NCBI GenBank assembly: GCA_903908495.1
Contig: CAIVSK010000191.1
Coordinates: 1 to 64,000, forward strand
Direction: 5' to 3'
Source: Akkermansiaceae bacterium
GTDB lineage: Bacteria > Verrucomicrobiota > Verrucomicrobiia > Verrucomicrobiales > Akkermansiaceae
DNA length: 64,000 nucleotides
Shown piece after piece: positions 61,377-62,387 of the stretch. Under the pieces are notes generated by a model. The model was given only the letters and a program-made list of their open reading frames with translations. It was not told where the DNA came from and ran no database searches. The position numbers and the translations under genes were made by a program. Positions within the stretch are counted from its first letter, which is position 1, and each line of letters begins with the position of its first letter.

Positions 61377-62222
61377 ATGACAGTGGTAACGCAAGCGGAC
61401 GAGTTGACGGCAGCCTTGGCGGAACATGGCCGGCCACGGGTGTTGGTGCCCACCATGGGCGCGCTGCATGACGGGCACCTGGCCCTGATCCGCCGTGCCA
61501 AGGACCTGGCCGGAACCAACGGCACGGTGGTGGTTTCCATTTTCGTCAATCCCATCCAATTTGACCGACCGGCGGACCTGGCGGGCTATCCGCGTCCGCT
61601 GGCGGCGGATCTGGCAGCCTGCGAGGCGGCGGGAGTGGCGCTGGTGTTTGTGCCGGAGGCCGGCGCGATGTATTTTCCGGACCGCTCGGTGACGGTCACC
61701 GAGTCGCAGCTCTCACGGACCCTCTGCGGCGCTTCACGGCCGGGGCATTTCGACGGCGTGTGCACGGTGGTATTGAAGTTGTTCCTGCTCTGCGGTTGCG
61801 AAATGGCGGTGTTCGGGGAAAAGGATTTCCAACAATTGGCGGTGATCCGCCGCATGGTCCGCGACCTCAACGTGCCGGTAACCCTCATCGCCCAGCCCAC
61901 CGTGCGGGAGGCCGACGGCCTCGCCATGTCGTCCCGCAACGTGCGATTGAGCGCTGCCCAGCGGGCGGACGCCCCCCGCCTGCGACAGGCCTTGCTGGCG
62001 GCACAGGCAGGCTTCCAGGCCGGTACCCACACGCCGGCGGAGCTGCTCGCCACGGCCCGTCAAGCCATCGAGGCCTCGGCGCTGGCACGCATCGACTACC
62101 TATCGCTGGTCGACGCAGATTCGTTAGAAACCGTGCCGCACGTCGTACGCCCGGCGGTATTGGCCGCGGCGGTGTTTTACGGTGAGGTGCGCCTCATCGA
62201 TCACGTGGGCATCGCGCCGTGA
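61377..62222 (+). CDS. panC: Pantoate--beta-alanine ligase (pantothenate synthetase)
   Basis: VLVPTMGALHDGHLALIRRAK; VSIFVNPIQF; GHFDGVCTVVLKLF; FGEKDFQQLAVIRRMV; GLAMSSRNVRLS. Confidence 0.95.
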   Translation: MTVVTQADELTAALAEHGRPRVLVPTMGALHDGHLALIRRAKDLAGTNGTVVVSIFVNPIQFDRPADLAGYPRPLAADLAACEAAGVALVFVPEAGAMYFPDRSVTVTESQLSRTLCGASRPGHFDGVCTVVLKLFLLCGCEMAVFGEKDFQQLAVIRRMVRDLNVPVTLIAQPTVREADGLAMSSRNVRLSAAQRADAPRLRQALLAAQAGFQAGTHTPAELLATARQAIEASALARIDYLSLVDADSLETVPHVVRPAVLAAAVFYGEVRLIDHVGIAP

Positions 62223-62228
62223 CGGCCC

Positions 62229-62387
62229 TCATTTGGTGCCGGGTTCGGGCACCACTATCATGGGCGGGGGCACCGCCGGCTTGCCGCCGGTCTCCTTGAG
62301 GTGATCCTTAATCAGAAACCAAATCGCGACCGCCAGCAGGAGTGACAGCAGCTTGGCGATCCAATTTTTCGGCAGGGTCGTTTTCAT
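62229..62387 (-). CDS. 52-aa single-pass membrane protein resembling the N-terminal anchor of CdaR/YbbR
   Basis: MKTTLPKNWIAKLLSLLLAVAIWFLIKDHLKETGGKPAVPPPMIVVPEPGTK*; overlaps the 3' end of cdaA by 80 nt in another frame. Not in the supplied ORF list. Confidence 0.6.
   Translation of the reverse strand: MKTTLPKNWIAKLLSLLLAVAIWFLIKDHLKETGGKPAVPPPMIVVPEPGTK

Follow-up and report, generated by a model that had tools for sequence, protein, structure and literature searches.

A CdaR-like protein reduced to its membrane anchor, encoded behind cdaA in Akkermansiaceae and related lineages

Introduction

CdaR (YbbR) is the regulator of the diadenylate cyclase CdaA/DacA in Firmicutes, Borrelia, and Porphyromonas. 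In the stretch of Akkermansiaceae DNA analyzed here (64,000 nucleotides, hereafter the window), the place directly behind cdaA is taken by an open reading frame (ORF) of only 52 codons. The question that this locus raises is whether so short a frame is a gene and, if it is, whether it represents a CdaR and what it could do for CdaA. An earlier note, made from the letters of the window, had proposed a minimal, anchor-only regulator of c-di-AMP synthesis.

The function and mechanism of CdaR are stated as not known (PMC8573169, PMC10243994). In Firmicutes, CdaA, CdaR, and GlmM form a complex (PMC8573169), and CdaR is reported to bind CdaA through transmembrane domains, possibly the first helix of CdaA (PMC10243994, PMC8573169). 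The loss of CdaR raises c-di-AMP in S. aureus (PMC11520302) and in P. gingivalis (PMC9259658), and c-di-AMP was raised when B. subtilis CdaR and CdaA were co-expressed in E. coli (as cited in PMC8316131). CdaR has been reported as an activator or a repressor, depending on the species.

Results

The gene and its locus

Translation of the minus strand gave exactly MKTTLPKNWIAKLLSLLLAVAIWFLIKDHLKETGGKPAVPPPMIVVPEPGTK, with the ATG at 62387 and the stop codon at 62229, identical to the protein read there before. A second in-frame ATG lies upstream and would lengthen the protein by three residues (MPP). The ORF, referred to below as micro-CdaR, immediately follows cdaA in the same orientation, and 6 nt separate it from the convergent panC; the overlap with cdaA and the convergent neighbor had both been described, and both were recovered (Table 1).

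Table 1. Features of the cdaA locus of the window, with positions on the forward strand and the evidence for each.
Feature	Position	Strand	Evidence
micro-CdaR, 52-aa anchor-only CdaR-like protein	62229..62387	-	translation, conservation behind cdaA, purifying selection
conserved anchor motif N8-W9-x-x-K12-L-x-S15-L-x-L-A19-x-x-x-W23-x-x-I26	62310..62366	-	column conservation
predicted transmembrane helix, micro-CdaR residues 8-33	62289..62366	-	AlphaFold2 single-sequence model
proline-rich micro-CdaR tail, residues 28-52, predicted extracytoplasmic	62229..62306	-	wholly outside cdaA; pN/pS 0.54
cdaA, diadenylate cyclase, 279 aa	62308..63147	-	TIGR00159 231.2 bits (cut-off 188.8)
80 nt shared by the 3' end of cdaA and the 5' end of micro-CdaR	62308..62387	-	constraint on micro-CdaR frame
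panC, convergent neighbor, outside the system	61377..62222	+	TIGR00018 279 bits

The CdaA of the window contains both the DAC domain (Pfam PF02457, 124.7 bits) and the N-terminal transmembrane domain (CdaA_N, PF19293, 44.2 bits), and it is the only DAC-domain protein of the genome, in which PF02457 matched once. As in most CdaAs of the class, its DAC motif reads D-G-G in place of D-G-A. The 7TMR-HDED domain of PgpH-type c-di-AMP phosphodiesterases was not found in this genome. The glmM gene lies on another contig (C155) and is thus not the next gene after micro-CdaR; glmM was not found at the cdaA locus in the window's family (f1), unlike the arrangement in the Firmicute operon. At seven loci from several genera of that family (L035-L037, L053, L055, L056, L060), the expected place of glmM after micro-CdaR is occupied, on the same strand, by bioD (dethiobiotin synthetase, by sequence reading).

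The ORF had been called unannotated and free of YbbR domains, and this held. Micro-CdaR had zero matches in Pfam and NCBIfam and nothing significant in PHROGs and the PDB, and no YbbR domain (PF07949) was detected at E<=10 in the ORF or anywhere else in the window genome, which is 96% complete. A gene of this length that is covered by neither a Pfam nor an NCBIfam model may be overlooked in annotation. The anchor motif of micro-CdaR occurs only once in the window.

Conservation behind cdaA

A tblastn search with the 52 residues gave matches in 131/144 genomes of the order (E<=1), with the best non-self E values ranging from 1e-6 to 1e-14. In the genus, each of the 33 genomes whose locus could be read has an equivalent ORF behind cdaA. 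Conservation downstream of cdaA in relatives, which the earlier note had named as a point on which its reading could fail, was thus present in the genus, and it also extends beyond it: the anchor was found in 31/31 genomes of the rest of f1 (30 separate, 1 fused to CdaA), in 33/33 genomes of f4 (30 separate, 3 fused), and behind cdaA in 31/32 genomes of f2. An anchor-only ORF also follows cdaA in most of the order's remaining families and in approximately half of the families elsewhere in the class. Among 57 genomes from other orders of the class, drawn by cdaA or YbbR, 29 had an anchor-only ORF, 24 had a protein with one or two YbbR domains, and 4 had no detected anchor. Genomes drawn via matches to the ORF are biased towards carrying the anchor; relatives drawn by cdaA instead agreed (41 anchor-only, 1 fused, 4 none). 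The anchor-only state is lineage-wide and not a local oddity. This breadth and the occasional fusion to CdaA go beyond what had been noted before.

No anchor gene was detected behind cdaA, in the interval from -200 to +400 nt around the cdaA stop codon, in part of f3, in f34 and f41, and in single genomes of f2 and f31. Anchors in divergent loci were detected with one HMM built from 16 seeds, and proteins of at least 118 aa were taken as YbbR-bearing by length where Pfam was undecided. Since cdaA of some lineages has no detected anchor gene, the latter is not universally required. The CdaAs without an anchor gene behind them (L123, L152, L154, L172-L175) tend to have long branches in the CdaA tree and look as if they had been evolving faster once the partner was lost.

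Selection and the overlap

The ratio pN/pS was estimated from Nei-Gojobori substitution counts between disjoint pairs, with bootstrap intervals. Outside the overlap (residues 28-52), the ratio within the genus was 0.54 (0.46-0.64), compared with 1.16 and 1.50 in the shifted frames; the tail is under purifying selection and does not evolve neutrally, which was the other point on which the earlier reading could have failed. Within the overlap, cdaA is read in the +2 frame relative to micro-CdaR (-80 = 1 mod 3, so that cdaA codons begin two bases later). Here pN/pS was 0.30 (0.21-0.40) in the micro-CdaR frame and 2.12 (1.38-3.64) in the cdaA frame. Selection in the overlap therefore acts on the small protein, and the frame of the CdaA tail is passive. 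Other genera gave micro-CdaR ratios of 0.31 (f2 g2), 0.37 (f4 g8), 0.26 (f1 g18), and 0.50 (f1 g19), so that purifying selection is seen in five genera (pN/pS 0.26-0.54).

The overlap with cdaA is short or absent in f2, f4, and many other families, and in f2, f4, f7, and f12 nearly all of the homologous ORF is outside cdaA. Because of the short or absent overlaps, the long one in the window's genus is best read as a CdaA tail that was extended into a pre-existing gene. The presence of the ORF in 33/33 congeners, together with the low pN/pS outside the overlap, is far beyond chance. Micro-CdaR is a real, previously unannotated gene.

Relationship to CdaR

The earlier note had likened the N-terminus of the ORF to the anchor of CdaR, and profile comparison bore this out. 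HHalign aligned the anchor-only profile (30 columns) with the anchors of full-length CdaR proteins, taken from the same phylum and not from Firmicutes, at a probability of 98.0% (E 2e-13, score 45.5), and with those of the one-domain YbbR forms at 98.4%. In the controls, 22% was the highest value for CdaA transmembrane helices, and the scores of 60 column-shuffled profiles did not exceed 14.8. By this comparison, micro-CdaR and the full-length CdaRs of its phylum have homologous anchors.

The 163 anchor-only proteins (47 genera, 18 families) are 31-117 aa long, with a median of 57, and, unlike full-length CdaR (~310-350 aa), have no extracytoplasmic YbbR domain. The shortest, MLLSRNWLPKFICLVLAIIVWCAIKYIYTAR (31 aa; L228, G106), is essentially the helix alone. 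K12 was conserved in 94%, A19 in 92%, and W23 in 98% of the proteins; position 15 is S, C, or A, and position 16 is mostly L. Conservation is periodic (100-102 degrees) and follows a single face of the helix (p=0.003), and full-length CdaR conserves the same face (K12-S15-A19-W23, p=0.0004). AlphaFold2 run without an alignment predicted a helix at residues 8-33 and an unstructured tail, the block at residues 11-30 having a pLDDT of 86-90; the model is informative on the presence of one helix only. The proline-rich tail occupies the place of the lost YbbR domains. The best PDB match of CdaA was 9g69, a CdaA-DAC structure with GlmM and without CdaR, and one full-length CdaR used as the query found no CdaR-like chain in the PDB.

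Origin in the slot behind cdaA

In the phylum's other classes, cdaA is immediately followed by a full CdaR carrying several YbbR domains. The sister orders of the class have at this place a protein of 127-230 aa that contains one or two YbbR domains, and glmM comes after it; the arrangement cdaA-YbbR-glmM is found in f10, f11, and f16 among others. In f2, f7, f12, and other families, an anchor-only ORF lies between cdaA and glmM, and the same holds for part of f4 and for other orders. Across the phylum, the slot behind cdaA thus contains a full CdaR, a protein with one or two YbbR domains, an anchor only, or an anchor fused in frame to CdaA.

On a CdaA tree of 128 rows, built with a quick method, these states are strongly clustered (10 changes vs 50 when shuffled). 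Parsimony required three changes for the presence of YbbR, but a single YbbR-less clade was also compatible with the data (p-AU 0.48), which leaves one to three losses of the YbbR domains in the class. The same p-AU did not uphold the alternative that all YbbR losses were independent.

Taken together, homology, synteny, selection, and the phylogenetic series show that micro-CdaR is a stripped-down CdaR, i.e. its N-terminal membrane anchor retained after the loss of the extracytoplasmic YbbR domains. Judged by the YbbR domain, it falls outside the standard CdaR family; by descent and position it is a CdaR, as a variant. No report of an anchor-only CdaR was found in the open-access literature searched, a scope that leaves out most subscription papers.

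Natural fusions to CdaA

In L163, L223, and L224 (f4 g14) and in L159 (f1 g18), the anchor forms the C-terminus of CdaA in one open frame. The L159 fusion is separate from those of f4 g14 on the tree, so that at least two fusion events took place. The fusions match the topology, as the C-terminus of CdaA is cytoplasmic and the anchor is predicted to be N-in. By the Rosetta-stone argument, such natural fusions point to CdaA as the partner of the anchor.

A second DAC protein of ~480-540 aa was observed in f9, f18, f21, f25, f34, f36, and f37 (L155, L238-L245). It contains a transmembrane region, a DAC domain, a further transmembrane segment, and YbbR-like domains in a single chain, with Pfam YbbR scores of 28.6 bits on L155 and 14.3 bits on L242, and looks like a cis-fused CdaA-CdaR with a complete sensor. 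The f34 genomes with this protein lack an anchor gene behind their classical CdaA.

Discussion

Micro-CdaR resembles CdaR in that its gene immediately follows cdaA in the same orientation, glmM coming next in sister orders, and in its single N-terminal anchor, which has the motif N-W/F-x-x-K-x-x-[SA]-L-x-x-A-x-x-x-W/Y and profile homology to CdaR of the same phylum. Unlike CdaR, it overlaps cdaA in the window's genus. What stood of the proposal of a minimal c-di-AMP regulator is the anchor-only CdaR, on the grounds of homology, slot, and selection; that micro-CdaR regulates CdaA we infer, and the direction may be either activation or repression.

The partnership between micro-CdaR and CdaA is well supported by the comparisons above, and we consider it probable that micro-CdaR contributes a fourth transmembrane helix to the CdaA complex and sets cyclase activity. 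The protein would be inserted N-in/C-out, and the face K12-S15-L16-A19-W23-I26 would pack on the CdaA transmembrane bundle as the fourth helix. This packing is strongly suggested by the same face in full CdaR, the gene position, the natural fusions, and the reported binding of Firmicute CdaR to CdaA through transmembrane domains. The docked helix may set the association of the cytoplasmic DAC domains and thereby the rate of c-di-AMP synthesis. Without YbbR domains, micro-CdaR would lack the envelope sensing attributed to full CdaR; the short proline-rich tail may replace this sensing or merely mark the outer end of the helix.

It is also possible, though rather unlikely, that micro-CdaR is a subunit for the assembly or stability of CdaA (folding, insertion, or dimerization) and that regulation disappeared with the YbbR domains. 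The supposed sensor is indeed the part that was lost, and an occasional anchor-CdaA fusion suits a constitutive subunit. A purely structural helix could, however, have joined CdaA everywhere, yet in almost every genome the anchor has kept a gene of its own, and selection also acts on the tail of micro-CdaR. We find it doubtful that micro-CdaR acts on some other partner, such as GlmM, a peptidoglycan enzyme, or a transporter, and is merely co-transcribed with cdaA. Although the Firmicute CdaA-CdaR-GlmM complex (PMC8573169) makes a second partner possible, micro-CdaR stayed with cdaA in f1 when glmM left the locus, the natural fusions join the anchor to CdaA and to no other protein, and the conserved face is that of CdaR.

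The one to three losses of YbbR domains in the class could suggest that micro-CdaR is a decaying, non-functional stump of CdaR, but this is very improbable in view of the purifying selection in five genera, the near invariance of the lysine, alanine, and tryptophan over 47 genera, and the persistence of the protein across 18 families. Finally, the 80-nt overlap and the many spurious ORFs in the window would be expected if micro-CdaR were a spurious frame, produced by coding constraint on the 3' end of cdaA and a high G+C content. This explanation, to which we give almost no credence, is refuted by the constraint in the overlap, which lies on the small frame and not on cdaA, and by the homologues of f2, f4, f7, and f12 beyond the end of cdaA.

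As the proposed fourth helix of the CdaA complex, micro-CdaR can be compared with KdpF and AcrZ, which are small single-helix subunits of membrane proteins. The proposed mechanism is similar, a very short membrane peptide being docked on a larger membrane protein, whereas the ancestry of micro-CdaR, unlike that of KdpF and AcrZ, can be traced to a large regulator via domain loss. Some streptococci carry CdaA-CdaR fusion proteins (PMC10243994), in which, as in the fusions found here, the CdaR anchor is tethered in cis to CdaA; unlike the streptococcal proteins, L163, L223, L224, and L159 join the anchor alone, without YbbR, to the C-terminus of CdaA.

That whole lineages keep the anchor alone points to this segment as the working part of CdaR. 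We lean towards the view that CdaR has its functional core in the transmembrane anchor: a helix of ~30 residues would suffice for control of a diadenylate cyclase, and the YbbR domains would be additions that can be dispensed with. On balance, the class may well be a natural truncation series that demonstrates this core, from two to three YbbR domains through one to none, and on to fusion with CdaA or loss.

A natural CdaR without the supposed sensor domains separates the function of the anchor from that of the sensor, and micro-CdaR and CdaA make up a minimal two-protein system for structure determination and reconstitution. The c-di-AMP released by Akkermansia muciniphila has been reported to stimulate host immunity (PMC10243994), and a factor that sets c-di-AMP production in Akkermansia would be of practical interest.
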